Shown here piece after piece: positions 49,631 to 63,958 of a stretch of 64,000 nt of DNA. The stretch is from assembly GCA_017433825.1 (NCBI GenBank), contig JAFRGL010000019.1, positions 1 to 64,000 on the forward strand, written 5' to 3'. Origin of the DNA: Eubacterium sp. GTDB taxonomy: Bacteria > Bacillota > Clostridia > Lachnospirales > Lachnospiraceae. Under the pieces are notes generated by a model. It worked only from the letters and a program-made list of their open reading frames with translations, searched no databases and was not told where the DNA came from. The position numbers and the translations under genes were made by a program. Within the stretch, counting starts at the first letter, position 1; each line of letters opens with the position of its first letter.

Positions 49631-50092
49631 ATGCTGGAAACAGGTACAAAGGCACCGGACTTTACGCTTCCGGACCAGAACGGCAGGATGGTATCACTGT
49701 CGGATTACAGGGGACAGAAGGTCATCCTGTATTTCTACCCCAAGGATATGACATCAGGCTGCACGAAGCAGGCCTGCGGCTTTTCGGAGCTTTATCCCCA
49801 GTTTACGGAGAAAGGCGCGGCAGTGCTGGGAGTCAGCAAGGACAGCGTTGCTTCCCATAAGAAATTCGAGGAGAAATACGGTCTGCCGTTCACCCTCCTT
49901 TCCGATACGGAAAAGGAAGTCATTCAGAAATACGACGTCTGGAAGGAGAAAAAGAATTACGGAAAAGTCTCCATGGGGGTTGTGAGGACCACTTACCTGA
50001 TTGATGAGGAAGGCGTTATCGTGAAAGGCTTTGACAAGGTCAGGGCTGCCGACAATCCCGCGCAGATGCTGGCGCTTCTGGCGGGGGTGTGA
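49631..50092 (+). CDS. bcp: Thiol peroxidase of the Bcp/PrxQ family
   Basis: The 153-residue protein is a standard Bcp: FTLPDQNGRMVSLSDYRGQK, then the active site TSGCTKQACGFSE with peroxidatic Cys and a second Cys five residues on (PrxQ type), and RTTYLIDEEGVIVKGFDKV near the end. It reduces peroxides with electrons from thioredoxin, a common oxygen defence in anaerobes. It is the second gene after the methyltransferase, ending at a strong terminator. Confidence 0.95.
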   Translation: MLETGTKAPDFTLPDQNGRMVSLSDYRGQKVILYFYPKDMTSGCTKQACGFSELYPQFTEKGAAVLGVSKDSVASHKKFEEKYGLPFTLLSDTEKEVIQKYDVWKEKKNYGKVSMGVVRTTYLIDEEGVIVKGFDKVRAADNPAQMLALLAGV

Positions 50093-50100
50093 ACAATACA

Positions 50101-50136
50101 AAAAGAACCGGGCACGGACCCGGTTCTTTTTTTTTG
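50101..50136. terminator. Bidirectional intrinsic terminator
   Basis: AAAAGAACCGGG (50101-50112) pairs perfectly with CCCGGTTCTTTT (50119-50130), with A and T runs outside; it separates bcp from the convergent OYE gene. Confidence 0.9.
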
Positions 50137-50159: not shown

Positions 50160-52151
50160 TCAGAACCTTCCGATATCCCTGGCGATGTAGTACGCGCCGC
50201 TGGTGGCGGTCCAGATATCCTTCGGGATAATGCAGTCGCCCACCTGGTAGTACTCAGGCGCCTGGAAACGGAACTGTTCGGCTTCCTCGCGAAGCGGCGC
50301 CTGGCCTACGGCGTAGACAACCGTATCGGCCTCGTAGAATTTCGTGCCTTCCTCGCCGTCTGCGGGCATGGCGGGCATGCCGAACCGGAAGCCGGCCTTG
50401 GGCTTCACGCCGGTGAATTCACAAAGCACGCCTTTATCGGTGATTTCCACGGCCTTCGTGGACGTGGAAACGTGGACGCCGTACTGCTTAAACTGGGTCC
50501 AGATGGCCAGACCCTGCAGCATGTTGCCGCCGTCATTTACGTCGGGCTGCATCTCGATAACCGTACATTTCTTACCCTGCATGGACAGGAAGATGGCAAG
50601 CTCCATGCCCACCAGGCCGCCGCCTAAGATAACCACGTTCTGTCCGGCCTTTTCGGGATCCTTGTAGATTTCCTCCGCGCCGAATACATTCGCGCCGTCG
50701 ATGCCGGGAATAGCCGGCTTTACCGGACGGGCACCCAGGCATGCCATGATGGCATCGGGCTTGATTTCCTCCACCAGTTCCGGCGTAACCGTGGTGTTCA
50801 GGCGGACTTCGATATTCTTCTGGCGGGAGATAAGACGCTTCTGCAGTTCGATATACTGGTGCAGCTTCTCCTTGAAGGGCACCTTTTCCTCGCACAGCAA
50901 AGCGCCGCCCAGCTGGTCGTTTTTCTCGCACAGCACCACCTGGTGGCCTCTTTCGGCCGCTTCCAGGGCACCCTGCATACCGGCCATGCCGCCGCCGATT
51001 ACCAGCACCTTCTTCAGCACCTTCGGTGCCGGCCAGGTGTTGTTTTCATATTCGTGGCCCAGTTCCGGGTTAATGGCGCAGTTCATGACGTCTGCCCTCA
51101 TATGCTTGGAGAAGCAGTACAGGCAGCGCATGCATTTGCGGACTTCGTCTGTCCTTCCGGTCTGCAGCTTAATGGGAAGATCCGGGTCGCACATCAGGCC
51201 CCTGGCCAGCTCCACGACGTCCACCTGTCCGGAGGCAATCAGCTCTTCCAGCTGTTCCGGCTCGGACAAAGCGCCGACGGTGGCGATGGGCGTGGTCTTT
51301 ACGTGTTTTTTGATCTCCGCGGCGTAATGGGCATTGCAGCCGTCCGCCAGGAACATGTTGGGATGGGTGATGGTGAATACTTCCATCTGTTCGTGGCTGC
51401 CGGTGGATACATGGATAAGATCCGCATGGCCTTCCAGCTGCAGTGCCTGGGCGATACCGCGCTCGATATGGTAGCCGCCTTCGTAAACTTCATCACCTAC
51501 GATACGGATTTCCACGGGATAGCTTTCGCCGCAGTACTGGTGGATACGGTCAATGATGGCTACAGCCAGTCTGGCGCGGCCTTCGATGTCGCCGCCCCAG
51601 CGGTCTGTCCTTGTGTTTTCATTGGAAAGGAACTGGGTGATGAGCCAGCCGTGGCCGCCATGGATGGTTACCATGCCGTAGCCCATGGTCTTGCAGTACA
51701 GGGCCGCGCGGGCGTGCTGTTCGATGGCTTCCATGATTTTCTCTTCAGTCATCATGTGGATGGGCCTGCCGTCCGGGGTTACGCCGTCCACCGGGCCGTA
51801 AAGCTCGTAGCCCAGGCTTGCGGAATAGCCGGCGCAGTTGCCTGCATCCAGGATTTCCATAGAAGCGACGGCACCGTGGCGGGTGATGGAACGGGCCATG
51901 TTGACCAGACTCTGCTTGCAGTCCGTGTTCCAGATGTTTATCTGGGACGCGCGGGCCCTTCCTGCGATATTCGGGCAGGCGTCGCCTACGCAGACGGAAG
52001 CAGCGCCGCCCAAAGCCTTGCGTTCATAATAACTGGTGGAGTAGCGTTCGGGCTCTAAAGCCACGCCTGTGGGGGAATTGAAAATCCTGTTTCGGAAAAC
52101 CTGATTGCCCAGAATGATCGGGCTGAAAAGATGGGGATATTTATTTTCCAT
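50160..52151 (-). CDS. Divergent OYE-type FMN/FeS/FAD oxidoreductase with Trp in the proton-donor position
   Basis: Start 52151 gives MENKYPHLFSPIILGNQVFR, aligning with the paralogue at 56301 (657 residues); the earlier in-frame ATG at 52232 overlaps the promoter -10 box. The 663 residues hold an FMN barrel, the 4Fe-4S site KCMRCLYC with a later Cys (MNCAIN), and an FAD/NAD domain (VLVIGGGMAGMQGALEAAER). The active-site strand reads HGGHGWLITQFLSNENTRTD: Trp169 sits where most OYEs have Tyr. The gene is divergent from the glycyl radical enzyme gene, sharing a 440-bp control region. The substrate is unknown; a role in the same pathway is inferred. Confidence 0.85.
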   Translation of the reverse strand: MENKYPHLFSPIILGNQVFRNRIFNSPTGVALEPERYSTSYYERKALGGAASVCVGDACPNIAGRARASQINIWNTDCKQSLVNMARSITRHGAVASMEILDAGNCAGYSASLGYELYGPVDGVTPDGRPIHMMTEEKIMEAIEQHARAALYCKTMGYGMVTIHGGHGWLITQFLSNENTRTDRWGGDIEGRARLAVAIIDRIHQYCGESYPVEIRIVGDEVYEGGYHIERGIAQALQLEGHADLIHVSTGSHEQMEVFTITHPNMFLADGCNAHYAAEIKKHVKTTPIATVGALSEPEQLEELIASGQVDVVELARGLMCDPDLPIKLQTGRTDEVRKCMRCLYCFSKHMRADVMNCAINPELGHEYENNTWPAPKVLKKVLVIGGGMAGMQGALEAAERGHQVVLCEKNDQLGGALLCEEKVPFKEKLHQYIELQKRLISRQKNIEVRLNTTVTPELVEEIKPDAIMACLGARPVKPAIPGIDGANVFGAEEIYKDPEKAGQNVVILGGGLVGMELAIFLSMQGKKCTVIEMQPDVNDGGNMLQGLAIWTQFKQYGVHVSTSTKAVEITDKGVLCEFTGVKPKAGFRFGMPAMPADGEEGTKFYEADTVVYAVGQAPLREEAEQFRFQAPEYYQVGDCIIPKDIWTATSGAYYIARDIGRF

Positions 52152-52159
52152 ATCCTGCC

Positions 52160-52191
52160 GGTACGGGGGCTTAACCGTACCTCCTCCTTCC
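52160..52191 (-). promoter_or_regulatory. Shine-Dalgarno sequence separated from its start codon by a hairpin
   Basis: On the minus strand GAAGGAGGAG (52190-52181) is followed directly by GGTACGG (52181-52175), an 8-base loop and CCGTACC (52166-52160), then 8 bases to ATG 52151. The ribosome site is about 30 bases from the start unless the 7-bp hairpin forms and brings them to normal spacing. Folding may control translation. Confidence 0.55.
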
Positions 52192-52231
52192 TGAAATGTA
52201 CTTTTCATTGGAAAAATGTTCTCTGCCATCA

Positions 52232-52259
52232 ATTATACCGAAAATACGGCCAAAAACAA
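52232..52259 (-). promoter_or_regulatory. Promoter of the divergent OYE gene
   Basis: On the minus strand TTGTTT (52259-52254), 16 bases, TATAAT (52237-52232). RNA would start near 52225, giving a leader of about 75 bases that includes the hairpin element. Confidence 0.65.
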
Positions 52260-52440
52260 TGCCGTAAATGTAGAAAATAAACAACAGAACCGACAATATC
52301 AAAATACTGAAAATGAACTGCAATATTTCTGTAAAGAGATGCTTCGGACGTATCAAAATATCATGGTTTTCAGAAGCCGAAGAATAAAAAACATAGTATC
52401 ATTAAGCATAAAATTCTACTGTCACAGAAGAAGTTTTCTG

Positions 52441-52563
52441 TTGAAAATGAACATAATTCCTGTTATCATCTAAATGTCAGATTATCGGGGAATAGGCTCA
52501 TTTTCCGGAAATCCGTACAAAACACTATATATTGGTTTTATTTACATACCTGAGGGACTCAGG
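52441..52563 (+). promoter_or_regulatory. Promoter and leader palindrome of the glycyl radical enzyme gene
   Basis: TTGAAA (52441-52446), 17 bases, TATCAT (52464-52469), with a leader of about 115 bases. CCTGAG (52549-52554) and CTCAGG (52558-52563) form a tight inverted repeat 28 bases before the start. TTTCCGGAAA (52502-52511) is a second palindrome. The rest of the 440-bp divergent region is AT-rich with no gene seen. Confidence 0.5.
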
Positions 52564-52591
52564 AAAGAACCAGATTTGAAAGGAGATTTTT

Positions 52592-55075
52592 ATGTACAAA
52601 TTCAGAGAGATCACCCCTCGAGTAGCGGATTATCGTTACCAGATTCGTAATCGTGTGCTGACCTACGATTCCGAGCGTGGCGAAATCATCACCGAAGCCT
52701 ATAAGAGACTGGGCGCGATGATCCCGATCCTCAAGAAAGCCTATGCGCAGCATGACTGGGCAGAGAAATGCACCTGCTACATCGGCGACACCGAGCTTAT
52801 CGTCGGCGGCAAGGGCAAATACATGTTCTCCAGCTCAGGCTTCCCGGAGAGCGGCGAATTTGCCGGCAGCACCAATGAGCACTGGATTATCGGCATGGTT
52901 AAGGCCGGCCTGTGGAAGATGGGCGATGACGGCTTCTATCACAGCCCCGACACCGCGCTTGCTCCCGCAAGAATTCATCCCGACACCATCAAGAAGATGG
53001 ATGAGATGAAAGAGTTCTGGAAATACAAAGAGAACACCTCTGACAGAGTTACCGCATCCCTTCCGGATTTCTATGCGGAGCTTGCCGGAACCGCTTCCAC
53101 CTCTTACCTGATGCCCGGACAGCCCGGATTCATCCCGCCCTACAGCCTGCCCTTAGGCCATCTGGTAGCCGGCTACAAGAAGATCATCAACACCGGTTAC
53201 AAGGCCATCTACGATCAGGCTACCGCATGGCTGGATGCCCACTACGGCAAACTCTTCGGCGAAGACGCGAAGAAGTACAGCTTCTACAAGGCCATCCAGA
53301 TTACCGCGGATGCTGCCATGATCTTCGTAAAGAGATACGGCGATGCCTGTAAGGCAAAAGCTGCCGAGTGCACCGATGAGAAACGTAAAGCCGAACTGGA
53401 AAGAATGGCTGAGGATCTGTACTGGATTGCCGAGAAACCCGCCAAGACCTTCCGTCAGGCCCTGCAGGCTTACATGAGCTACCAGGTATTCCATCTTGCC
53501 GAGACTTCCAACCCCTCCGCTGCTCTGGGTCGTTTTGACCAGAACACCTGGCCCTTCCTGAAGAAGGATCTGGAAGACGGCGTTATCACCATCGAGGAAG
53601 CACAGGAACTGGTTGACATGTTCTTCCTGAAAGCCAACTGCTTCTACGGCATCGCTCCCGAAGTTGTTGCCGATACCACCGGCGTAGGCAACACCTGGCA
53701 GCATACCACCATCGGCGGCGTTGACCCGCTGACCGGCGAAGATGCCACCAACCCCGTAACATACATGGTTCTGGAAACCGTAGCCCGTCTGGAGCTGCAT
53801 GATCCCACCATTTCCCTTCGTTTCAACAAGAATACCCCGGATGAGCTGTGGTCCTGCGCAGTTGAGACCTCCAAGATGGTTGGCGGCCTGCCGCTGTATC
53901 AGAACGACGAAGTTATCATCCCCGGCCTTATCAAGGAAGTAGGCTTCTCACTGGAAGATGCCCGTGACTACGGCATCATCGGCTGTCAGGAAATCGTAGG
54001 CTGCGGCAATGACTTCCCGGCTCCCAACGGATGTCCGCCTCACGGCTCCGCTTTCTGGTCCATCATCTTCGATATGGCCATCAACAACGGCATCAACCCG
54101 CTGAACGGCTATCAGTGCAGCGTACACACCGGTTACCTGTATGAGATGGAGAACATCGAGCAGGTTCGTGACGCTGTCCGCAAGATGGGCTACCACATCC
54201 AGCAGATGTTCGCTTCCATGCACTGCTATGCGGAGGAAATCGCCCTGAAGGATAACTGCCAGCCCGCACTTTCCATGTCCGTGGAAGGCTGCATGGAGAA
54301 AGGCCTTGACGTATCATGGGGCGGCGCGAAGTACAACAGCTTCGGCTGCACCGCTACCGGTCTTTCCACCGTTGCCGATTCCTTAAATACCATTAAGTAC
54401 ATGTGCTTCGACAAGAAGCTGTGCACCACCAGGGAGCTGTACGATGCCGTTATGGCTAACTGGGAAGGCTATGAAGACCTCCGTGAGCAGGTTAAGGCTG
54501 TTGTTCCGCACTACGGCAACGGCGATCCGTACGCTGACGTAGAAGGCAAATGGATTAACGACCTGTACTATGAGATCTGCCAGACTGTTCACAGCACCAG
54601 ATCCAAAGTTTACAAATCCGGTCTGTACGGCGCTTCCGACCACATCCGTCAGGGCCGTATCACCTGGGCTACCCCGGACGGACGTAAGCTCGGCGATCCC
54701 ATTGCCGACGGTTCTTCACCGGTTCAGGGCTTCGACAAGAACGGCCCGACCGCTGTATTTACCTCCTGCGCATGCTACGATCATCACCACTACATGGACG
54801 GTATCGCGCTGAACCTGCGTCTGCATCCGTCAGTAGTATCCAATGATGAAGGTATTGCGAAGGTTGTTGCCATGACCAAGGCTTACTTCGCAAACGGCGG
54901 CATGGAGACCCAGTACAACGTAGTAGATACCGCAACCCTGCGTAAGGCTCAGGAAGATCCCAGCGCTTACAAGGATCTGGTTGTACGTATTGCCGGTTAT
55001 TCCGCATACTTCGTTGACATGAGCAAAGACCTGCAGAACGACATCATTGCCAGAACCGAGAACCAGCTTGGCTGA
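52592..55075 (+). CDS. Glycyl radical enzyme (PFL-like) of unassigned substrate
   Basis: The 827-residue protein has the two hallmarks of the family. One is the thiyl-radical site IIGCQEIVGCGNDFPAPNGC (Cys465, Glu467, giving the C-x-E pattern of the decarboxylase/dehydratase branches). The other is the glycyl loop VRIAGYSAYFV (Gly802). SVEGCMEKGLDVSWGGAKYN (Glu565, Cys567) is the conserved second active-site strand. Length is between hydroxyproline dehydratase and choline lyase. The residue after Cys is Gln, whereas GCVE is usual in the lyases I know, and no small HpdC-like subunit is encoded, so 4-hydroxyphenylacetate decarboxylase and CutC are unlikely. Codon choice differs from neighbours (many CGT, GTT and GCT), as in strongly expressed genes. 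The activase follows. AAAGGAG lies 6 bases before ATG. Confidence 0.92.
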   Translation: MYKFREITPRVADYRYQIRNRVLTYDSERGEIITEAYKRLGAMIPILKKAYAQHDWAEKCTCYIGDTELIVGGKGKYMFSSSGFPESGEFAGSTNEHWIIGMVKAGLWKMGDDGFYHSPDTALAPARIHPDTIKKMDEMKEFWKYKENTSDRVTASLPDFYAELAGTASTSYLMPGQPGFIPPYSLPLGHLVAGYKKIINTGYKAIYDQATAWLDAHYGKLFGEDAKKYSFYKAIQITADAAMIFVKRYGDACKAKAAECTDEKRKAELERMAEDLYWIAEKPAKTFRQALQAYMSYQVFHLAETSNPSAALGRFDQNTWPFLKKDLEDGVITIEEAQELVDMFFLKANCFYGIAPEVVADTTGVGNTWQHTTIGGVDPLTGEDATNPVTYMVLETVARLELHDPTISLRFNKNTPDELWSCAVETSKMVGGLPLYQNDEVIIPGLIKEVGFSLEDARDYGIIGCQEIVGCGNDFPAPNGCPPHGSAFWSIIFDMAINNGINPLNGYQCSVHTGYLYEMENIEQVRDAVRKMGYHIQQMFASMHCYAEEIALKDNCQPALSMSVEGCMEKGLDVSWGGAKYNSFGCTATGLSTVADSLNTIKYMCFDKKLCTTRELYDAVMANWEGYEDLREQVKAVVPHYGNGDPYADVEGKWINDLYYEICQTVHSTRSKVYKSGLYGASDHIRQGRITWATPDGRKLGDPIADGSSPVQGFDKNGPTAVFTSCACYDHHHYMDGIALNLRLHPSVVSNDEGIAKVVAMTKAYFANGGMETQYNVVDTATLRKAQEDPSAYKDLVVRIAGYSAYFVDMSKDLQNDIIARTENQLG

Positions 55076-55107
55076 TAAACGGCTCACAAAATAATTAACT
55101 GACTGAA

Positions 55108-55150
55108 AACTCCCATCCGCTTCCCGGAAAGGGTAACGGATGGGAGTTGT
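55108..55150 (+). terminator. Intercistronic hairpin between the glycyl radical enzyme and its activase
   Basis: AACTCCCATCCG (55108-55119) pairs perfectly with CGGATGGGAGTT (55137-55148), with a further CCC/GGG inside. The tail is only GTTTA, so it is probably a leaky terminator or mRNA-stabilising end that lowers activase expression. Confidence 0.65.
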
Positions 55151-55168
55151 TTACGAAAGGATTATATT

Positions 55169-56140
55169 ATGGCAGAATTAACAGGAAGAGTCTATGACAT
55201 CCAGCCCTTTTCCGTGCATGACGGCCCGGGCATCAGAACCACAGTATTTTTAAAGGGATGCCCGCTTCGCTGCCCCTGGTGCCACAGCCCGGAATCCCAG
55301 CTTTTCGAGCCCCAGCTTTCCTGGATCGCCATGCGCTGCGTCGGCACGGAGCAGTGCAAGGATAAATGCATCAAGGCCTGCCCGAAGAATGCCATTGAAT
55401 ACGGCGAAACCCGTAAAGACATGAATGAAGACGGTACCGTAAAAAGCATCGTCCAGCAGATTCATGTAAAGCGGGATCTCTGCGACAACTGCGGCAAATG
55501 CGCGGAGCTTTGCTATCCCAAAGCCCTGTACATCTGCGGTGAGGATTATACCGTGGACGCCCTTGTGAAAAAGGCAATGAAGGACAAAGCCTATTTCGAC
55601 AGCTCGGGCGGCGGCGTTACCATCTCAGGCGGAGAGCCCTTAAGCCAGATGCCTTTTACGCTTGAAGTTTTGAAAAAGCTGAAGGAAAAAGGCGTCCATA
55701 CCGCGCTGGATACGACCTTCTTTACCCCTTGGGAGAATGTGGAAGCGGTGCTTCCGTACGTGGATGTATTCCTTCTGGATTTGAAACACATGGACTATGA
55801 CAAGCATCTTGGCATGGTGAAGGTGCCGAACGACGTTATTCACGAAAATGCCAGGAAAGCGGCAAAAGCCGGCGCCAGGTTCGAAATCCGTGTGCCCATC
55901 ATCCCGATGTTCAACGATAATGACGAGAACATGAATGCTACGGCGAAGTTCTGCAAGGAAGAGCTGGGAGACGAAGCCGTGGAATTCGTCCAGCTCCTTC
56001 CCTACCATGCCTTAGGAGTGACCAAGCACCTGCGTATTTCCGATACCCCGGTAGCCGCGGCCGTTCCGCCCTCTGCGGAGAAAATGGAGCATATGCGGGA
56101 GATTACCGAAAGCTACGGCTTGAAGGTTGTCATTTATTAA
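55169..56140 (+). CDS. Glycyl radical enzyme activase (radical SAM, PflA-like)
   Basis: The 323-residue protein has the radical SAM motif CPLRCPWC (Cys31, Cys35, Cys38) and the SAM-binding GGGVTISGGEPLSQ. Between them is an insert with two ferredoxin-like clusters, CVGTEQCKDKCIKACP and CDNCGKCAELCYP. This insert is absent from PflA itself and typical of activases for choline lyase, glycerol dehydratase and arylacetate decarboxylases. It installs the radical on Gly802 of the upstream enzyme. The C-terminus LPYHALGVTKHLRIS is a family feature. The gene follows the intercistronic hairpin and ends at a strong terminator. Confidence 0.95.
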   Translation: MAELTGRVYDIQPFSVHDGPGIRTTVFLKGCPLRCPWCHSPESQLFEPQLSWIAMRCVGTEQCKDKCIKACPKNAIEYGETRKDMNEDGTVKSIVQQIHVKRDLCDNCGKCAELCYPKALYICGEDYTVDALVKKAMKDKAYFDSSGGGVTISGGEPLSQMPFTLEVLKKLKEKGVHTALDTTFFTPWENVEAVLPYVDVFLLDLKHMDYDKHLGMVKVPNDVIHENARKAAKAGARFEIRVPIIPMFNDNDENMNATAKFCKEELGDEAVEFVQLLPYHALGVTKHLRISDTPVAAAVPPSAEKMEHMREITESYGLKVVIY

Positions 56141-56161
56141 ATATCACAGATGAAACGACAG

Positions 56162-56197
56162 ACAGCAGGATTGCTTGCAAATCCTGCTGTTTTTTTA
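56162..56197 (+). terminator. Intrinsic terminator of the activase transcript
   Basis: ACAGCAGGATT (56162-56172) pairs perfectly with AATCCTGCTGT (56179-56189/90), followed by seven T. Confidence 0.9.
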
Positions 56198-56230
56198 CGG
56201 ATGCGGCGCGTCCATGCACGGACTTATTTA

Positions 56231-56259
56231 TTGATTTATAACTGTTTCCGTGATAAGAT
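56231..56259 (+). promoter_or_regulatory. Probable promoter of the OYE-DUF4125 unit
   Basis: TTGATT (56231-56236), 17 bases, TAAGAT (56254-56259), 42 bases before the start codon. Confidence 0.5.
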
Positions 56260-56300
56260 TTTACTGGAGAAATATTTTCAGTATATAAAGGAGAAGAAGG

Positions 56301-58274
56301 ATGATTAACGATTACAAATACCCGCACCTGTTCGAGCCGATTAAACTGGGAAACCAGCTGTTCCGCAACAGAATTTTCGCGTCCCCCACAGGCTACCTGA
56401 ATACCAACGGAGACGGCTACTTAAATGAAGGTGCCGCGGCGTACTACGGCAGAAGGGCCAGGGGCGGAGCGGCTTCCGTAGCCACCTTCGAATGTGTTGT
56501 GGATACCGAATACGGCAGAGGCGGAGACGCCCACTTTTCCACGGGAAGACCCGGCGTGGCGGCCAACCTGGGCAGGATTGCGGCTGAAGTCAAGGGCTAC
56601 GGCGCAGTGCCGACTCTGGAACTGCAGCATACCGGTATGTTTGCCAACCGTTCCTTAAGCATGTTCGGCGGCGAAGCCAAAGGCGTTGCCTACGGTCCGG
56701 TGGAAATGATGGTGGACGGAAGGCTTATCAAGCCCATGACGGAAGAATTCATTGAAAGGACCATCAACAAGTACATCGAAGCTGCAGTCGTGGGGCAGTC
56801 AGTAGGCTTCGGCATGATGCTGATCCACGCGGGACACGGCTGGATGCTGCATCAGTTCCTTTCCCCGATTACGAACACCCGTACCGACAAGTGGGGCGGC
56901 CCTGCCATTGAAAACAGGGCCCGGATGCTGATTGCCATCTGCGACGGTATCCACAGGAGACTGGGAGAAGGCTTCCCCATCGAAGTGCGTATTTCCGGAA
57001 GCGAATGCTATGACGGCGGCTTCGGCATCGAGAACGGCATTGCCATTGCCAAACAGCTGGAAGGCCACTGCCAGCTTATCCATGTATCCGCAGGCAACCA
57101 TGAGGTGGATGAAGTATTCACCGTCACCCATCCTTCCATGTTCCAGAAGGACGGCTGCAACACCTATCTCGCGGAAGAGATCAAGAAACATGTATCGACC
57201 CCGGTAGCCACGGTCGGCGCGCTTTCCGATCCGGACCTTATGGAAGAGCTTATTGCCTCCGGCAAGGTGGATGTGGTGGAAATGGGCAGGGAGTTCATCT
57301 GCGAGCCCGACTTCCCGACACTTGTGCGTACCGGCAGGGAAAAAGAAGTAAAGAAATGCTTAAGATGCCTTTCCTGCTTCTCCTCAGAGCTTACCAACGG
57401 CGAGCCCTACTGTGCCATCAACCCGGAAAGCGGACGTGAAATCGAGACCAAGTACGAAGCGCCTGTGGTGAAATCCAAAAAGAAAGTCCTGGTGGCAGGC
57501 GGCGGCGTGGCCGGCATGGAGGCAGCCCTTACCCTGGCGGAGAGAGGCCATGACGTTATCATCTGCGAGAAGACCGGACGGTTCGGCGGCGTGCTGCGCT
57601 GTGAAGAGAAGGTGGATTTCAAGAAGAACCTGGATTATTACCTGAACCAGCAGGCGGAGAAGATTGAGAAGACCCCGAATATCGAAGTGCGGCTGAATAC
57701 CGAAGTAACCCCGGCTCTGGCCGAGGAAATCAAACCGGACGTACTCATTGCGGCCCTTGGCGCGGTTCCGGCGGTTCCGAAGATTCCGGCGGATGCGGAC
57801 GCGAAGACCATGACCGCCCAGGATGCTTACGGCAGAGTGGACGAGCTGGGCGACAAGGTGGCCATTCTCGGCGCGGGCCTTGTAGGCATCGAGCTGGGAC
57901 TGCATCTGGCTTCCTTAGGCAAAAAAGTATCGGTTATCGAGATGACGGATCACATGAACGATGGCGGCAACTTCCTGCACATGTCCGGCGTACGGGTGGA
58001 AATCAAAAAGCGCGGCCTGGATATGCATTTCTCCACGCAGGCGAAACAGATTTCCGCTAAAGGCGTAACCTGTGAATGCGAAGGCAAAGAAGTGTTCATT
58101 GACGCTGACAGCGTTGTGTTTGCGGTTGGCCAGAAGCCCCTGACGGAAGAAGCCGTAGCGCTGAATTACTGCGCGCCGGAAGTTTATTTCATCGGCGACT
58201 GCGTCACCCCGAAGAACATTACAGAAGCCACCTCTACGGCCTATCTTATTTCGAAGAATATCGGCAGGTTTTAA
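56301..58274 (+). CDS. Divergent OYE-type FMN/FeS/FAD oxidoreductase, paralogue of the gene at 50160
   Basis: The 657 residues begin MINDYKYPHLFEPIKLGNQL, matching the minus-strand copy. The FMN barrel carries HAGHGWMLHQFLSPITNTRT, again with Trp (Trp181) instead of Tyr at the proton-donor position. The 4Fe-4S site starts KCLRCLSC (Cys353) and ends at Cys in EPYCAIN. The FAD/NAD domain is VLVAGGGVAGMEAALTLAER and VAILGAGLVGIELGLHLAS. AAGGAGAAG precedes the start. It is followed 39 bases later by a DUF4125 gene. The two Trp-type copies flank the glycyl radical enzyme and activase, suggesting reductive or oxidative steps on the same substrate. Confidence 0.87.
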   Translation: MINDYKYPHLFEPIKLGNQLFRNRIFASPTGYLNTNGDGYLNEGAAAYYGRRARGGAASVATFECVVDTEYGRGGDAHFSTGRPGVAANLGRIAAEVKGYGAVPTLELQHTGMFANRSLSMFGGEAKGVAYGPVEMMVDGRLIKPMTEEFIERTINKYIEAAVVGQSVGFGMMLIHAGHGWMLHQFLSPITNTRTDKWGGPAIENRARMLIAICDGIHRRLGEGFPIEVRISGSECYDGGFGIENGIAIAKQLEGHCQLIHVSAGNHEVDEVFTVTHPSMFQKDGCNTYLAEEIKKHVSTPVATVGALSDPDLMEELIASGKVDVVEMGREFICEPDFPTLVRTGREKEVKKCLRCLSCFSSELTNGEPYCAINPESGREIETKYEAPVVKSKKKVLVAGGGVAGMEAALTLAERGHDVIICEKTGRFGGVLRCEEKVDFKKNLDYYLNQQAEKIEKTPNIEVRLNTEVTPALAEEIKPDVLIAALGAVPAVPKIPADADAKTMTAQDAYGRVDELGDKVAILGAGLVGIELGLHLASLGKKVSVIEMTDHMNDGGNFLHMSGVRVEIKKRGLDMHFSTQAKQISAKGVTCECEGKEVFIDADSVVFAVGQKPLTEEAVALNYCAPEVYFIGDCVTPKNITEATSTAYLISKNIGRF

Positions 58275-58313
58275 GACAGCGGACGCAGGCGGTAGCAGAA
58301 GAGAGGTATAATT

Positions 58314-58958
58314 ATGATGACTCTTGAAGAAAAGAAAATGAGACTGGTGGAAAAGGAGTGGGAGTGCTTCCAGCAGGTGCAGAACGAAGGCGGAAGGGCC
58401 AGCTGCCAGGACGACCGGACCACCTTCTTCATCATGCGCAAAAGCCAGTTTGTGCTCTGGCCGGAGAACCTGATTGACAGCTACACCATCGATGTGGACA
58501 ATGCCGTCTTCATGGGAAGGAACCTTCTGGCGGAAAAATACGCCTGGATGATGGCGGATACCGCACCTGCAAAATTCGAGGAGCTCAAAGAGCTGCTCAC
58601 CATGCCCACGGAGAAGGCGCAGGAAGCTATCGACTACATCGTGCCCGTCCAGGTGAAATGGATGGAAGAGTACGCGGCGAAGTATCCCTACATTGCCGCC
58701 GGCAACCGTGTGGTGCACACCTCCGACGAACGCTTCGGGCAGACTTCCTACGAAACCTACCTGCGGGGCGAGCTGCACACTTATTCCGAGAAAACGCTGT
58801 TGCTTCTGGCGGACCTCTGCCGCAGGCTGGATGCGGAAGGCACCAACATGATGCTGGCCATCATGACCGCCACCATGCAGGAGTACGGCTTCGCGGATCT
58901 GGATGCTGCGGAAGCTACCACGAAAAAATATGCCGTGGCGGGGAAAAATATCGGCTGA
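58314..58958 (+). CDS. DUF4125-family protein
   Basis: The 214-residue soluble protein has the DUF4125 features RLVEKEWECFQQVQNEGGRA, SCQDDRTTFFIMRKSQF, NLLAEKYAWMMADTAP and YETYLRGELHTYSEKTLLLL. Acidic and basic residues are conserved (Glu in KEWE, Arg in GGRA, Cys and Asp in SCQDD), so catalysis or tight binding is plausible, but the family has no known function to me. GAGAGG is upstream; ATG 58317 is an equal alternative start. Its position directly behind an OYE gene links it to the presumed pathway. Confidence 0.8.
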   Translation: MMTLEEKKMRLVEKEWECFQQVQNEGGRASCQDDRTTFFIMRKSQFVLWPENLIDSYTIDVDNAVFMGRNLLAEKYAWMMADTAPAKFEELKELLTMPTEKAQEAIDYIVPVQVKWMEEYAAKYPYIAAGNRVVHTSDERFGQTSYETYLRGELHTYSEKTLLLLADLCRRLDAEGTNMMLAIMTATMQEYGFADLDAAEATTKKYAVAGKNIG

Positions 58959-59010
58959 TAAGCTGTAGTTTCTGAAAACGCCTGCGGCCTGGACTACCGG
59001 GAGTGCATCA

Positions 59011-60003
59011 ATGAGGCAGAATAACCGTCCTGTCAGATACTGTATTTTCTGCGGCAAGGCAAACAATCCTTCCTGGCAGTACTGCAATTACTGCGGAAAG
59101 GAGCTTTACCCGGATGAAAACCAGCTGAAGGACTACGCAATTAAAGAAATAAAGGACCAGCTGAAGGATAAGGCTGTCGATACCGTTTTCGACAAGCTGA
59201 AGCATTTCCTTCTGGCCCATCTGTACGGCATCGTGCTGACGGCCTCGGTTGTATTTACCGGGGTGTCAGCCGTATCCGTACTGGGAACCGGGGATATCCC
59301 CAAGGAGGCCCGGCAGGTGACAAGCCCGCCAGCTGTTGATATTCTGGGAAATCTGGCGGACGGCAGTGAGAATACCAGCCCTGCAGCAGAGGAGCGGGAG
59401 ACCGCAAGTGTACCGGCAGAGGAACCGTTATCAGAGACGGAAGCCGTGGATTTTCTGGACGTCTACCATGCCTACCTGCCGCTGCTTTCGGAGGCCCGGG
59501 GAGATGACCCCGGCTATTATATTTACGATATCGACAAGGACGGCATACCGGAACTGATACTGACTGTGCAGGAAACCTACGAAAGCCATTCGATTTCCCG
59601 CGGCCATGAAGTCTGGTATTATGCGGACGGAACCGCAAAAAGCGCCGGTATTGTCTGGGGGTTTGCCCATGGAAGACCGGATCTTGCTTCTTATCCGGAC
59701 GGAAACGGTCTGGTATGCATCGAGACAGCCCGCATGTACGAATGTATATGGCTGGTTTCACTGGACAAAGAGCAGGGGACGCTTTCTGATGATGCAAATA
59801 CAGAGGAAAGCAATGTTCTTACACGTCCGGTGGATGACGGCAATGTCCATTACTACGTAAACATATATGAGCCTCCGTATTATGTCTTTGACAACCACCC
59901 CTTCAAAGCCGTAACGGAAAATCCTTTCTTTGAAGATTCGAAGCTTCTGGGCTTCAATGACCCTGCGGACGATACCGCTTTAAAGGAGGCGCTGGGCCTA
60001 TGA
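59011..60003 (+). CDS. Zinc-ribbon protein with membrane helix and extracellular DKDG-type domain
   Basis: The first 35 residues hold a zinc ribbon, CIFCGKANNPSWQYCNYCGK. A membrane segment follows at about residues 68-93 (LAHLYGIVLTASVVFTGVSA). A Ser/Glu/Ala linker leads to an extracellular domain with YYIYDIDKDGIPELILTVQE, the Asp-rich short repeat seen in many clostridial surface proteins. The ribbon should be cytosolic. I find no named family for the outer domain. Another zinc-ribbon/membrane gene follows 37 bases on, so these two may be a pair. Confidence 0.62.
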   Translation: MRQNNRPVRYCIFCGKANNPSWQYCNYCGKELYPDENQLKDYAIKEIKDQLKDKAVDTVFDKLKHFLLAHLYGIVLTASVVFTGVSAVSVLGTGDIPKEARQVTSPPAVDILGNLADGSENTSPAAEERETASVPAEEPLSETEAVDFLDVYHAYLPLLSEARGDDPGYYIYDIDKDGIPELILTVQETYESHSISRGHEVWYYADGTAKSAGIVWGFAHGRPDLASYPDGNGLVCIETARMYECIWLVSLDKEQGTLSDDANTEESNVLTRPVDDGNVHYYVNIYEPPYYVFDNHPFKAVTENPFFEDSKLLGFNDPADDTALKEALGL

Positions 60004-60040
60004 TGAAGCATTCCGGAAAAGCAGGAAGGGGGAGGATGTC

Positions 60041-60586
60041 ATGAAGTGTCCGAACTGTTCCGAAGAAAACCTCCTGATTGCGCAGTACTGCTGCAGCTGT
60101 GGCCGTCCGTTTACCGATAAAGAACGTAAAAAGGCTTATGACGCCACCATATTCGGCAAGGTTGACAAGGTCAGGAAGGGCGTGGAAGTCGTCACACTGA
60201 AAGTGGTGACCGACAGTATCTGGTTCAAGATTGCGACCATTGCGGTTATCGTTATACTAGGCTTCTGGCTCCGGTCAAACCATGTGAACACTTTCCGCCT
60301 GGAAAGCAGCAGCGATTACGAAATCCTCTATCTGGAGGAAACCAAAACCTATTATCTGGTTACGCAGGCGGATAGGGTGCCGGTGCGCCTTGTGGCGCCG
60401 AAAAACACGGTAACGCTTACGGTGGACGAGCTGACGGAGACCGGCGGCTTTGTTTTCCGCACCGCCTATACACCTGAAGAGGGCGTGGTATTATCTGTCA
60501 GCGGACAGAACCATTATCTGCTGACCGTCTCAGACGGCAAAAGAAATACCGGCCAGCTGGTGCTGTACGTCTACCGGGACAACTGA
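60041..60586 (+). CDS. Zinc-ribbon protein with one membrane helix
   Basis: The 181-residue protein begins with a zinc ribbon (CPNCSEENLLIAQYCCSCGR), has one membrane segment at about residues 64-84 (FKIATIAVIVILGFWL), and an outer beta-rich domain of about 95 residues with no known motif. The start is chosen after AAGGGGGAGG. Layout matches the gene just upstream, but the outer domains are unrelated as far as I can tell. The region to the next gene holds only an AT-rich promoter zone. Confidence 0.62.
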   Translation: MKCPNCSEENLLIAQYCCSCGRPFTDKERKKAYDATIFGKVDKVRKGVEVVTLKVVTDSIWFKIATIAVIVILGFWLRSNHVNTFRLESSSDYEILYLEETKTYYLVTQADRVPVRLVAPKNTVTLTVDELTETGGFVFRTAYTPEEGVVLSVSGQNHYLLTVSDGKRNTGQLVLYVYRDN

Positions 60587-60671
60587 GCAAATACCGGTTT
60601 ATATGCATACTATGATAAGGTTTATCAATAATTTACAATTTCACCATAAAATAATTTAAAAAAAAACAAGT

Positions 60672-60699
60672 ATGCAGAACCTGCATTCTCTGTTATAAT
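60672..60699 (+). promoter_or_regulatory. Promoter of the UroD-family gene with palindromic operator
   Basis: TATAAT (60694-60699) is a consensus -10. The perfect inverted repeat ATGCAG-AAC-CTGCAT (60672-60686) covers the -35 position and spacer, so a regulator could block the promoter there, or an activator could replace the missing -35. Confidence 0.55.
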
Positions 60700-60738
60700 G
60701 TAAAAAAATAATCTATTCAGATTGAGAAAGGAAATTTT

Positions 60739-61740
60739 ATGCTTACAATCAAACAGAATCTCCTTGAGACCATCAGAGGCGGACATCCGGATCGTTATGT
60801 TAAGCAGTTTGAGCCCTTCAAGATGCTTTATGCCACCCCTCTTACCGTTCAGAGCAGACAGCCTGCATACGGCGAGCATCTTGTACAGGATGCATGGGGC
60901 GTTTACAAATCCTGGCCGGAAGGCACCCCCGGTGCATTCCCGGTACACGATGCCGAGCATAAGGTAATCACTGACATCGAGGACTGGAAGAACCAGGTTA
61001 AGTTCCCGACCTTCCCGACCGATGAAGAATCCTGGGCTCCCTTCGTAAAGTTTGCTGAGGCGATTGACCGCGACGAGTACTTCGCCACACAGTTCTATGC
61101 ACCCGGCCTTTGGGAGCAGTGCCATTACCTGATGGGCGTTGACGACGCCTGCATGAACCTGCTTCTGTATCCCGATGAGATGCATGAACTCATTGATTCC
61201 ATTGCTGACCTGATGGTTGAGCACACAAAATGCTTCTGCAAGTATTTCAAGCCCGAAGCTTATTTCCAGCATGATGACTGGGGCAGCCAGATTTCTACCT
61301 TTATGGCTCCCGATACCTTCGAAGAGTTCTTCCTTGAGCCCTACAAGAGGGTATACGGAACGGCTAAGGAGAACGGCGTAGAACTCATCATCCATCACTC
61401 CGATTCTTATGCTGAAACTCTTGTTCCCTACATGATCGAGATGGGTATCGACATCTGGCAGGGCACCATGAGAACCAACAACATCCCGAAGATCATCGAA
61501 GAATACGGCGGAAAGCTGACCATTATGGGCGGTATCGACAGTGCTACCGTAGACTTCCCGCAGACCACCGATGAGATTATCGCTGAGAAGGTTGAAGAAT
61601 CCTGCCGTGCTTACGGCACCAAGTTCTACATCCCCTGCGGTTCCCAGGGTCTGGCCATGTCCACCTTCCCGGGTGTATATGACAAGATTTCCGAGAATAT
61701 CGACAGAATGAGCAAGGAGTTCTTCGGCGATCCCGAATAA
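60739..61740 (+). CDS. Uroporphyrinogen decarboxylase (URO-D) superfamily protein
   Basis: The 333-residue protein is a URO-D type barrel: FYAPGLWEQCHYLMGVDDAC, KPEAYFQHDDWGSQISTFMA, HHSDSYAETLVPYMIEMGID, then LTIMGGIDSATVDFPQTTDE. It lacks the N-terminal arginine-rich signature of true HemE and is nearer to the MtaA/corrinoid methyltransferase group, which moves methyl groups from methylamines, methanol or aryl ethers. No corrinoid protein is encoded beside it. Codon use resembles that of the glycyl radical enzyme (CGT, GTT, GCT preferred), suggesting high expression. GAAAGGAAA precedes the start. It is monocistronic with its own regulated promoter. Confidence 0.82.
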   Translation: MLTIKQNLLETIRGGHPDRYVKQFEPFKMLYATPLTVQSRQPAYGEHLVQDAWGVYKSWPEGTPGAFPVHDAEHKVITDIEDWKNQVKFPTFPTDEESWAPFVKFAEAIDRDEYFATQFYAPGLWEQCHYLMGVDDACMNLLLYPDEMHELIDSIADLMVEHTKCFCKYFKPEAYFQHDDWGSQISTFMAPDTFEEFFLEPYKRVYGTAKENGVELIIHHSDSYAETLVPYMIEMGIDIWQGTMRTNNIPKIIEEYGGKLTIMGGIDSATVDFPQTTDEIIAEKVEESCRAYGTKFYIPCGSQGLAMSTFPGVYDKISENIDRMSKEFFGDPE

Positions 61741-62129: not shown

Positions 62130-63131
62130 ATGATCATTGTATTGAAACCGAATACAAAAGAGGAAAGAAGAAAACAGCTGATTGACTGGCTGAAAGGAAT
62201 GAACCTGGGCGTTCATATTTCCGACGGGCAGTTCCAGACCGTGCTGGGCCTAATCGGCGACACCAGCAAGGTGGACATGGATTTGCTGGCCAGCCTGGAT
62301 ATTGTGGATACGGTAAAAAGGGTGAGCGAGACCTTTAAGTGCGTAAACCGCAAGTTCCATCCCGACGACACGGTGATAGACGTGAACGGCGTGAAAATCG
62401 GCGGCGGCAATTTTGCCCTGATTGCTGGACCCTGTTCGGTGGAGTCAGAAGATCAGATTGTTACGGTGGCTAAAGCCGTAAAGGAAGCCGGCGCGAACCT
62501 GTTCCGGGGCGGCGCTTTCAAGCCGAGGACCTCTCCTTACGATTTCCAGGGCCTGGGGGCGGAAGGCATCAGGCTTTTGAAAATTGCCCGGGAAGAAACC
62601 GGCCTGCCCATCGTGACGGAAATCATGAACATCGCGGACCTTCCGCTGTTCGAGGACGTGGACGTGCTGCAGGTAGGCGCCAGAAATACCCAGAACTATG
62701 ATCTGCTGAAGGAACTGGGAAACCTGAATAAGCCCATCCTGTTAAAAAGAGGCCTGGCGGGAACCTTAAAGGAGCTTCTGATGAGCGCCGAATACATCAT
62801 GTCCAACGGCAATGAGCAGGTTATCTTATGCGAACGCGGCATCCGCACCTACAGTGATTATATGAGAAATACCCTGGATCTTTCCGCAGTGCCCATGCTG
62901 CAGGAGCTTTCCCACCTGCCGGTCATCGTAGACCCCTCCCATGCCACGGGCATTGCAAGGATGGTGCCGCCCATGGCCATGGCAGCTGCCGCGTCCGGTG
63001 CCGACGGCATTATGATCGAGGTGCACAACGACCCGATTCACGCACTGTGCGACGGCGCGCAGTCCCTGACGCCGGATGAATACGCGAAGCTGACGAAGAA
63101 AATCAAGGCAATCAGGGAGGCAATCGCATGA
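62130..63131 (+). CDS. aroF: 3-deoxy-7-phosphoheptulonate (DAHP) synthase
   Basis: The 333-residue enzyme condenses phosphoenolpyruvate and erythrose 4-phosphate, the first step of the shikimate pathway. Residues 1-70 are a ferredoxin-like regulatory domain; the barrel begins FALIAGPCSVESEDQIV and includes NLFRGGAFKPRTSPYDFQGL, VLQVGARNTQNYDLLKELG, PILLKRGLAGTLKE and VIVDPSHATGIA. This is the type I-beta (AroF/KDSA-like) form, whose N-terminal domain often binds Tyr or Phe for feedback. It follows the attenuator, has GTAAGGAGA before its ATG, and overlaps tyrA by 4 bases. Confidence 0.95.
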   Translation: MIIVLKPNTKEERRKQLIDWLKGMNLGVHISDGQFQTVLGLIGDTSKVDMDLLASLDIVDTVKRVSETFKCVNRKFHPDDTVIDVNGVKIGGGNFALIAGPCSVESEDQIVTVAKAVKEAGANLFRGGAFKPRTSPYDFQGLGAEGIRLLKIAREETGLPIVTEIMNIADLPLFEDVDVLQVGARNTQNYDLLKELGNLNKPILLKRGLAGTLKELLMSAEYIMSNGNEQVILCERGIRTYSDYMRNTLDLSAVPMLQELSHLPVIVDPSHATGIARMVPPMAMAAAASGADGIMIEVHNDPIHALCDGAQSLTPDEYAKLTKKIKAIREAIA

Positions 63132-63958
63132 TTACGGGAATAGTCGGACTGGGTTTAATCGGCGGATCTTTTGCTAAGGCCTATCAGGAAGACGGGCATA
63201 CGGTTCTGGCCTGCGATACGGACCGTTCCACACTGGACTTTGCCCTCCTTTCCGGCGCAGTGGACGCGGAACTGACGGATGAGCGTTTAAAAGACTGCGA
63301 CCTGATCCTGATTTGCGCCTATCCGAAGGGCACGGCGGACTTCCTGACGGAGAAAGGGCCTTTTTTCGGCAGCAAGCCGGTGGTAATGGACTGCTGCGGT
63401 ACGAAACGGGTTATCACGGAAGTCGGACAAAAAGCCGCAGAAAAATACGGTTTCCTGTATGTCGGCGGCCATCCGATGGCGGGCACGCAGTTTTCCGGCT
63501 TCAAATATTCAAAAGGGGATATGTACAAAGGGCAGCCCATGGTCATCATACCGCCGAAATATGACGATATCGAGCTGCTGGACAGAATCAAAACCCTGCT
63601 GAAGCCGGCGGGCTTCGGGAAAATCACCGTAACCACGGCGGAAAACCACGACAGGATGATAGCCTTTACTTCCCAGCTGGCGCACGTGGTCTCCAATGCT
63701 TACATTAAAAGCCCCACCGCAAGGGAGCATTTCGGCTTTTCCGCCGGAAGCTACAAGGACATGACCCGGGTGGCCTGGCTGAATCCGAAGATGTGGACCG
63801 AGCTTTTCCTGGAAAACCGGGACAACCTGGCAAAGGAAATAGAAATCCTCATTTCCGCGCTTACGGAGTACAAGGAAGCGATTGAAACAGAAGACGCGGT
63901 GCGGCTGGAACAGCTGCTGGCGGAAGGAAAACGCTTAAAGGAAGAGGTGGACGGCTGA
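63128..63958 (+). CDS. tyrA: Prephenate dehydrogenase
   Basis: The 276-residue enzyme has the NAD-binding motif GLGLIGGSFAKAYQED at the N-terminus and GGHPMAGTQFSGF, whose His contacts prephenate. ENHDRMIAFTSQLAHVVSNA completes the TyrA pattern. It converts prephenate to 4-hydroxyphenylpyruvate, the committed step to tyrosine. There is no C-terminal ACT domain, so feedback at the protein level is not evident and control by the upstream attenuator fits. It overlaps aroF (ATGA) and the next gene (ATG within TGATG). Confidence 0.93.
   Translation: MITGIVGLGLIGGSFAKAYQEDGHTVLACDTDRSTLDFALLSGAVDAELTDERLKDCDLILICAYPKGTADFLTEKGPFFGSKPVVMDCCGTKRVITEVGQKAAEKYGFLYVGGHPMAGTQFSGFKYSKGDMYKGQPMVIIPPKYDDIELLDRIKTLLKPAGFGKITVTTAENHDRMIAFTSQLAHVVSNAYIKSPTAREHFGFSAGSYKDMTRVAWLNPKMWTELFLENRDNLAKEIEILISALTEYKEAIETEDAVRLEQLLAEGKRLKEEVDG

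Follow-up and report, generated by a model that had tools for sequence, protein, structure and literature searches.

A Cys-Gln-Glu Subfamily of Glycyl Radical Enzymes in Eubacterium sp. and Its Possible Role in the Breakdown of Methoxylated Plant Phenolics

The question raised by this locus of Eubacterium sp. is what substrate is served by a glycyl radical enzyme (GRE) that is encoded beside its activating enzyme (activase) and between two flavoenzymes of the OYE type, with genes for a DUF4125 protein and a UroD-fold protein farther downstream. The window, meaning the whole stretch of 64,000 nucleotides that was analyzed, is contig C19:1-64000 of an assembly of 2.61 Mb (92.7% complete). The initial annotation had read the locus as an anaerobic pathway for an aromatic, steroid-like or other unsaturated substrate. 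What stands is that the GRE belongs, as judged from its sequence, to a new, widespread and uncharacterized subfamily, that the lineage of the host carries exceptionally many GREs, and that this subfamily probably serves methoxylated plant phenolics, a substrate class suggested by gene context.

The glycyl radical enzyme and its subfamily

The enzyme was assigned to the pyruvate formate-lyase (PFL)-like GREs by its PF02901 and Gly_radical domains, its active-site Cys, the Gly in the RxxGY loop and the GRE fold, and the residues first reported for it (Cys465-Gln466-Glu467 and Gly802) were confirmed. It scored below the cut-offs of all NCBIfam named-enzyme models that it matched. The scores were 379 bits (cut-off 1050) for the choline trimethylamine-lyase CutC (TIGR04394), 434 bits (1100) for the trans-4-hydroxy-L-proline dehydratase HypD (NF043068), 450 and 409 bits (1000 each) for the sulfopropanediol dehydratases HpfG and HpsG, 310 bits (1150) for 4-hydroxyphenylacetate decarboxylase (HPAD), 329 bits (1100) for indoleacetate decarboxylase and 318 bits (1109) for PRK09983. 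Of these models, positive controls were run for CutC, HypD and HpfG only, and all three exceeded their cut-offs (L125, 1642; L126, 1546; and L135, 1720, respectively). For the PFL2-3 subfamily (TIGR01774), the GRE gave 426 bits against a cut-off of 678, compared with 941-962 for references L130 and L131 and 665, just under the cut-off, for the HypD control itself. PFL has an adjacent pair of Cys; the motif here is C-Q-E, and the PFL model (TIGR01255) gave 114 bits against 994. Membership in the tested named families is thus rejected on the curated cut-offs, in agreement with the first impression that no signature of PFL, choline lyase or HPAD was present.

These scores also bear on the proposal of a GRE that cleaves C-C bonds of phenolic acids, as an arylacetate-type decarboxylase or otherwise. 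Both decarboxylase models fell far short, the sequence match to decarboxylases was weaker than that to dehydratases (303 against 381 bits), and no gene resembling the small HPAD subunit was seen in the locus, no genome-wide search having been made. The proposal was deemed improbable.

Clustering inside a characterized group, a possibility raised at the outset, was not observed. In a tree of 101 rows, the GRE fell within one supported clade (SH-aLRT 100). This clade, here called GCQE, is marked by the Cys-Gln-Glu motif, which was found in 77 of 79 related loci, and C465, Q466, E467, R399, H403, Q687, N502 and P503 are invariant among 30 aligned members. The tree labels GCIG, GCGT and GCDY are artifacts of the motif regular expression, and L025, L029 and L031 are GCQE. 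In one member of the clade (L072:480-2978), Phe replaces the radical Cys (GFQE) while the glycine loop is intact, and this enzyme is possibly nonclassical or inactive. No paper on the GCQE family was found among the titles and abstract openings listed from an open-licence library.

The pocket of the GCQE enzymes is altered. They lack the GHSIS and WHD stretches, to which functional roles are ascribed and which are common to the diol-dehydratase-type and HpfG references; HypD and CutC also lack both. None of the four references has so long a loop after the active-site Cys, and the Glu is retained in the GCQE enzymes. When aligned with 1r8w and reference L123 (the latter named by similarity only), the window GRE did not show the GHSIS and WHD stretches that, besides CxE, mark glycerol and 1,2-propanediol dehydratases. 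This argues against the suggestion that the GRE dehydrates an alicyclic or chain plant polyol (a quinate/shikimate-type cyclitol or a larger sugar acid), with the OYEs and FAD proteins handling or aromatizing an enone. The corrinoid methyltransferase, PhlG-domain and BzdO-like neighbors described below would moreover be needless for a polyol, and this suggestion is considered unlikely.

The locus, its relatives and the host genome

The features of the locus are as follows.

50100..50131, no strand: hairpin resembling a bidirectional terminator, with 13-14 pairs and a T run on each strand, in the gap that separates OYE1 from the gene ending at 50092
50160..52232, - strand: OYE1, an FMN/4Fe-4S/FAD ene-reductase-type flavoenzyme (PF00724 and pyridine-nucleotide domains; Cys-cluster and HGGHGW motifs)
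52441..52469, + strand: sigma-70-like promoter upstream of the GRE (TTGAAA-17-TATCAT, TG before the second hexamer; a consensus match only)
52592..55075, + strand: GRE of the GCQE subfamily, 827 aa (PF02901 and PF01228; C465-Q466-E467, G802)
55169..56140, + strand: radical SAM GRE-activating enzyme with a ferredoxin-like insert (radical SAM and Fer4 domains; TIGR02494, 317.8 bits against a cut-off of 174)
56162..56190, an inverted repeat that is the same on both strands, listed on -: hairpin between activase and OYE2, a possible end of the GRE-activase transcript
56301..58274, + strand: OYE2, an FMN/4Fe-4S/FAD ene-reductase-type flavoenzyme (PF00724 and pyridine-nucleotide domains), a paralogue of OYE1 (49% identical)
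58314..58958, + strand: DUF4125 protein (Pfam DUF4125, 234 bits), all-helical in the structure model
59011..60003, + strand: zinc-ribbon protein (Zn_Ribbon_1, below cut-off)
60041..60586, + strand: small zinc-ribbon-like protein, named by eye (no family match)
60739..61740, + strand: UroD-fold protein (Pfam URO-D, 50.6 bits)

The GRE, activase, two OYE, DUF4125 and UroD genes all lie where the initial annotation had placed them, with Pfam in agreement. The two zinc-ribbon-type genes are probably outside the system, as they are missing between DUF4125 and UroD in the relative L009. The annotated start of OYE1 (52232) is probably too far upstream; the ATG at 52151 (protein start MENKYPHLF) is preferred because it agrees with the start of the L009 protein. 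The idea that each unit has its own promoter and terminator was upheld only in part, since promoter-like sites exceeded those in shuffled sequences (17 against 9.3, standard deviation 2.7) and terminator-like sites did not (14 against 13.8). The proposed codon bias of the GRE and UroD was recovered: with an effective codon number of 33.7, the GRE is the most strongly biased of 46 open reading frames (ORFs) of the window, and UroD is also biased (38.5) but stands outside the ranked list since an antisense ORF displaced it. OYE1, DUF4125 and OYE2 ranked 4, 5 and 7, and the activase was unbiased (46.9, rank 30).

Two further regions of the window were noted. A third OYE-type gene (43686-45641, - strand) is the genome's best PF00724 match, and only the GRE has a lower effective codon number among the ranked ORFs of the window. 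Directly downstream of the locus (62130-63958) are DAHP synthase- and prephenate dehydrogenase-like genes named by eye, and L009 continues with aroB/aroA-like genes, likewise by eye. These shikimate-type genes from 62130 on were considered as a tie to quinate chemistry, and no evidence for such a link was found.

The genes of relatives were called by a codon-usage ORF picker, checked only where hidden Markov model results are given (it picked no GRE in L080), and UroD, OYE, SDR, LysR and activase in relatives denote BLAST clusters. The relative L009, which is of the same genus and has a GRE 96% identical to that of the window, keeps the order OYE1-GRE-activase-OYE2-DUF4125-UroD, with an OYE1 92% identical at the same place, and is the only relative with the complete set. 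It is probably the same record as genome G152 of that genus, whose corresponding stretch (L152) shows the same genes. L010 (GRE 69% identical) keeps GRE-activase-OYE2-DUF4125, the last three at 57-71% identity (OYE2, 71%), and its upstream OYE is not an OYE1 orthologue (35% identity). L153, another stretch from this genus, has a different GCQE GRE divergent to a run of activase, OYE, FAD protein and GRE (names by eye), and in L042 an OYE, an activase and an SDR surround the GRE. L023, from the cultured relative Sporobacter termitidis, carries a tandem pair of GCQE GREs.

Across the subfamily, most loci with the enzyme lack the flanking genes, the outcome that had been named at the start as refuting the proposed pathway. 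Among 76 loci with a GCQE GRE of more than 400 aa, some of them cut by contig ends, UroD was found in 18, OYE in 13, activase in 11 and SDR in 14; in the 45 loci longer than 15 kb, UroD, OYE and activase were found in 16, 12 and 9. A single fixed pathway of GRE, two OYEs, DUF4125 and UroD is therefore rejected, as the set is complete only in L009.

Alternatively, the flanks might be unconnected, with GRE and activase forming one unit and the OYEs, DUF4125 and UroD being chance neighbors. This explanation draws on the lack of a conserved gene set, on the hairpin between activase and OYE2 and on the distribution of UroD matches, which were not enriched near GREs in the host genome (3 of 24 within 2 kb against 1.29 expected, p 0.14; p 0.30 at 4 kb and 0.16 at 8 kb). 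The OYE genes, however, were enriched (5 of 22 within 2 kb against 1.19 expected, p 0.0055; p 0.026 at 4 kb and 0.043 at 8 kb), these p values being from binomial tests that treat genes as independent and are uncorrected for the three distances. The retention of activase-OYE2-DUF4125 in L010, the activase-OYE pair beside a different GCQE GRE in L153 and the arrangement in L042 also argue against chance adjacency, which was judged unlikely.

The host genome has 28 PFL-like GREs. The counts over seven genomes of the genus were 28, 23, 23, 15, 1, 1 and 0, and since a high load is common to four of the seven, faulty assembly is not the cause. Among 150 sampled genomes of the family (the host included), the next highest first-look count was 17 and all others were at most 10, with the best 7 candidates per genome scored. 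By the residues following GC, the 28 comprise 11 GCVE, 9 GCQE, 6 GC[L/I/V]D and 2 GCVW/GCVY enzymes, the cut-off copy L092_2 having been read complete from L106. The genome also holds 22 OYE genes (23 PF00724 matches, two being parts of one frame), one DUF4125 and 24 UroD matches, of which 23 exceed the cut-off. The figure of 24 is a minimum, since the genome scan missed the UroD of the corrinoid operon described below, which scores 31.8 bits in the protein scan.

Several of the other GREs are of interest in their own right. In six of them (L096, L098, L099, L101:7916, L102 and L103), which form one clade in the tree, Asp replaces Glu two residues past the active-site Cys; three were tested, and all were below every named-family cut-off. 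Trp or Tyr takes the place of this Glu in L092:2387-4831 and L101:10399-12843, and also in L025 and L040; the two host copies have GG in place of AG in the glycine loop, and these GCVW/GCVY enzymes likely use a different chemistry. An array of GCVE GREs (74-115 kb of contig C19; L090-L092 and L106), up to 88% identical and with two OYEs inside, lies downstream of the window GRE, starting some 20 kb away.

Five activases of the host exceeded the TIGR02494 cut-off, and 15 weaker radical-SAM-type matches (at most 42 bits) were also found, so further activase types are possible. The window activase, one of the five, was assigned by its score, its CX3CX2C motif and its Fer4 insert. It had been described as a two-cluster enzyme, but its 13 Cys (CX3CX2C at 31, 35 and 38, two sets of four within the ferredoxin-like insert, and a further two) indicate that there are probably three clusters. 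It is 96%, 65% and 62% identical to the activases adjoining GCQE GREs in L009, L010 and L153, respectively. A second host activase with no adjoining GRE (L120:6296-7324) is 64% identical to it and lies about 3 kb from a DUF4037 gene. With five activases over the cut-off for 28 GREs, an activase is probably shared in trans among the GCQE GREs, and that of the window would also activate the eight others of the host. Sharing is also suggested by L031 and L071, where an activase lies between a GCQE and a GCVE GRE, each locus having a second activase farther off. The host thus offers a natural test of activase promiscuity.

Substrate class and proposed reaction

The substrate class was approached through the window UroD and the neighbors of GCQE GREs. 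The UroD superfamily includes the O-demethylases MtvB, OdmB, VdmB and MtoB, according to the excerpted text of PMC13222342. A host operon on contig C16 (L151), in which UroD, a corrinoid protein, MTII and a RACo-type protein form a single run, encodes a UroD with 44% identity to that of the window over 332 aa (E 4e-104). The MTII exceeds its cut-off (300 against 259), the corrinoid protein has Pfam B12-binding domains over cut-off, the RACo-type protein is over its Pfam cut-off, and the genome's only PF02607 match is in this operon. Elsewhere on C16, AcsV (905 against 800) and AcsA/B (979 against 800) are both over cut-off, and a GCQE GRE with an adjoining UroD is near AcsV and about 9 kb from acsB. 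The window UroD is a probable corrinoid-dependent methyltransferase I of the O-demethylase type. Given the corrinoid methyltransferase operon and the carbon monoxide dehydrogenase/acetyl-CoA synthase genes, the host is probably an O-demethylating, acetogenic gut bacterium that lives on methoxylated plant phenolics. It is probably a rumen bacterium, and the rumen, termite and digester origins of the DNA are presumed. In the host, 7 of 24 UroD matches lie within 4 kb of an OYE (a count only).

The neighbors scanned were hand-picked: of the 20 proteins, relatives contributed 18 and the host genome two, some of them lying outside the list of 171 co-directional neighbor genes in relatives. In L077, SDR, GCQE GRE, MTII (348 against 259), corrinoid protein (212 against 215), GCQE GRE and OYE follow each other on one strand. 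In L046, SDR, 3HCDH, cyclase and BKACE, the four families of the phloroglucinol pathway in the excerpt of PMC10470551, are co-directional about 3 kb from a GCQE GRE, and in L058 a BKACE is directly upstream. An NMO, a PhlG-domain protein (PF18089), an activase and a GCQE GRE are co-directional in L051, and L083 is the same by clustering. Upstream in L055 are a BadF/BcrA-type ATPase and a BzdO-like protein, and the closest PDB match of a protein in L063 is pyrogallol hydroxytransferase (149 bits), followed by DMSO reductases (125 bits). CooC-like proteins, MFS, sugar ABC and TRAP transporters and aro genes were named by eye only. Together these neighbors hint at an oxygen-free breakdown of methoxylated plant phenolics (for general background, see the excerpt of PMC11574389).

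Side observations concern three other neighbor families. A DUF169 protein adjoins GCQE GREs in the host (L104:5181-5885) and, by clustering, at L025:12448 and L027:12484. Large MoaF-domain proteins (about 590 aa) recur near GCQE GREs (L019:16171; by clustering, L058:6913 and L067:3385). DUF4125, present in 8 of the 398 genomes sampled across the phylum (the host included), was confidently modeled as all-helical, and a fold search with the model gave no clear solved relative, which is not evidence of a new fold. In L063, DUF4125 adjoins DUF4037 about 2 kb from a GCQE GRE, and the two are neighbors by eye in L145 and L147. The excerpt of PMC12583861 describes the same pair in a limonene ring-cleavage operon, whose GRE is a succinate synthase.

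The explanation that we favor, with a confidence slightly short of even, is that the new subfamily performs radical eliminations on methoxylated plant phenolics, with a shared activase, in an O-demethylating acetogenic host. The window activase would place a glycyl radical on Gly802, which would generate a thiyl radical at Cys465. From a phenolic or phenylpropanoid substrate, the thiyl would abstract a carbon-bound hydrogen atom with Glu467 as the base, and the neighboring (beta) C-O bond would be eliminated to give a carbonyl compound. This order of events, from Gly radical to Cys thiyl, hydrogen removal, Glu base and C-O loss, is the common scheme of GRE eliminases. The OYEs may act on precursors or products, whose conjugated C=C they would reduce (or form), and UroD may hand methoxyl methyl groups to a corrinoid protein encoded elsewhere, leading to methyl-tetrahydrofolate and acetyl-CoA synthesis. 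Of all this, computation shows the family and clade of the GRE, the gene contents, the scarcity of activases and the kinship of UroD with a corrinoid operon; the substrate class, activation in trans, C-O elimination, the direction of the OYEs and the acetogenic life are inferred.

Several results weigh against this explanation. Fewer than half of the GCQE loci (31 of 76) have any of UroD, OYE or activase, and 12 of 76 also have a GCVE GRE, to which their neighbors could belong. The L051 PhlG-domain protein is not PhlG itself (NCBIfam PhlG, 93 against 600), the BzdO-like name rests on a score far below cut-off (149 against 449), and other scanned neighbors (a protein kinase, a PucR-type regulator, a cupin, FAD proteins, a MoaF-domain and a DUF169 protein and two without family) are silent on phenolics. 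As the neighbors were hand-picked and were not set against a background rate for PhlG, BKACE or BzdO-like genes, this evidence is suggestive rather than statistical, and confidence was lowered slightly on that account. OYE and UroD are abundant enough in the host that their adjacency is partly expected by chance, and the UroD matches lacked enrichment near GREs, as noted above. No full-length DPGC-type cyclase was found in the host genome, which has one short PF04199 match. In L151, the corrinoid protein fell below its NCBIfam cut-off (181 against 215) and the RACo-type protein below that of AcsV (341 against 800). The window UroD gave 30 bits against 235 for MtaA/CmuA (TIGR01463), and carries HHSDS where MtaA-type proteins have HxC.

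The same neighbors bear on a steroid or bile acid pathway, as initially allowed for. It could be entertained because both OYEs match the BaiCD and mycofactocin OYE models at 338-350 bits and because FAD-binding proteins lie near some GREs. Both OYEs are nevertheless far under the BaiCD cut-off (NF041087; 338 and 338.5 against 825), the corrinoid methyltransferase, PhlG-domain and phloroglucinol-type neighbors of the clade fit phenolics better, and nothing was found that points to steroids, so that such a pathway is hardly credible. Of the pathway first proposed, the aromatic-type anaerobic character agrees with the clade neighbors in selected relatives and with the corrinoid methyltransferase and acetyl-CoA synthase genes of the host; the fixed gene set and the steroid substrate were abandoned.

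Within radical elimination on phenolics, the boldest candidate substrates are aryl ethers. Cyclic ethers, the 1,5-anhydrohexitol phosphates, are named as ligands in the PDB titles of two GREs, PflD and YbiW, which suggests that an ether oxygen may act as the leaving group, and phenolate would be a better one still. The thiyl would then take the hydrogen of a carbinol carbon and phenolate would leave the next carbon. With neither oxygen nor reductant, targets such as beta-O-4 ethers of the lignin type or the flavan-3-ol C ring would yield a ketone and a free phenol. That the GCQE GREs are radical aryl-ether lyases is quite unlikely, although, if they were, nine paralogues and a shared activase could deal with a wide range of plant ethers, the products then being finished by O-demethylases and ene-reductases.

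The anaerobic dismantling of plant phenolics in the rumen, the termite gut and digesters is poorly explained, and the GCQE GREs are concrete enzymes to test. At least 77 loci carry them, nine copies being encoded in the 2.6-Mb genome of a host that also has corrinoid methyltransferase genes, and some relatives have phloroglucinol-type and benzoyl-CoA-reductase-like genes alongside.

Comparison with known systems

Among structurally solved GREs, the B12-independent glycerol and 1,2-propanediol dehydratases (PDB 1r8w, 9rco and 5i2a) are 30-32% identical to the window GRE, which differs from them by the missing GHSIS and WHD stretches, by Gln for Val between Cys and Glu and by the longer loop after the Cys. 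E. coli YbiW (8id7) and PflD (8id0) are less similar at 27% identity, in line with the low PRK09983 score given above, and their ligands are sugar phosphates, not phenolics. The window OYEs share the FMN barrel, the Cys-cluster motif and the FAD/NAD domain with Fe-S OYE-type flavoenzymes such as BaiCD, bilirubin reductase, the mycofactocin OYE and NCR (6qkg, the best PDB match of OYE2 with 264 bits), but their scores are far below the cut-offs of the named models.

The window UroD shares its superfamily with the corrinoid O-demethylase methyltransferases I (MtvB, OdmB, VdmB and MtoB) and with CdmB, as far as the excerpt of PMC13222342 describes them. A PDB search with its sequence gave no match at E 0.001. 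In contrast to MtvB/OdmB-type systems, no corrinoid protein gene adjoins it, and the likeness was drawn through the superfamily and the L151 operon, not through MtvB/OdmB sequences. With respect to the clostridial phloroglucinol pathway PGR-DPGC-TfD-TAL, as outlined in the excerpt of PMC10470551, the host genome differs in having no full-length cyclase of that family, whereas the L046 cluster, known here from its genes alone, has the same four families in one co-directional run beside GREs.

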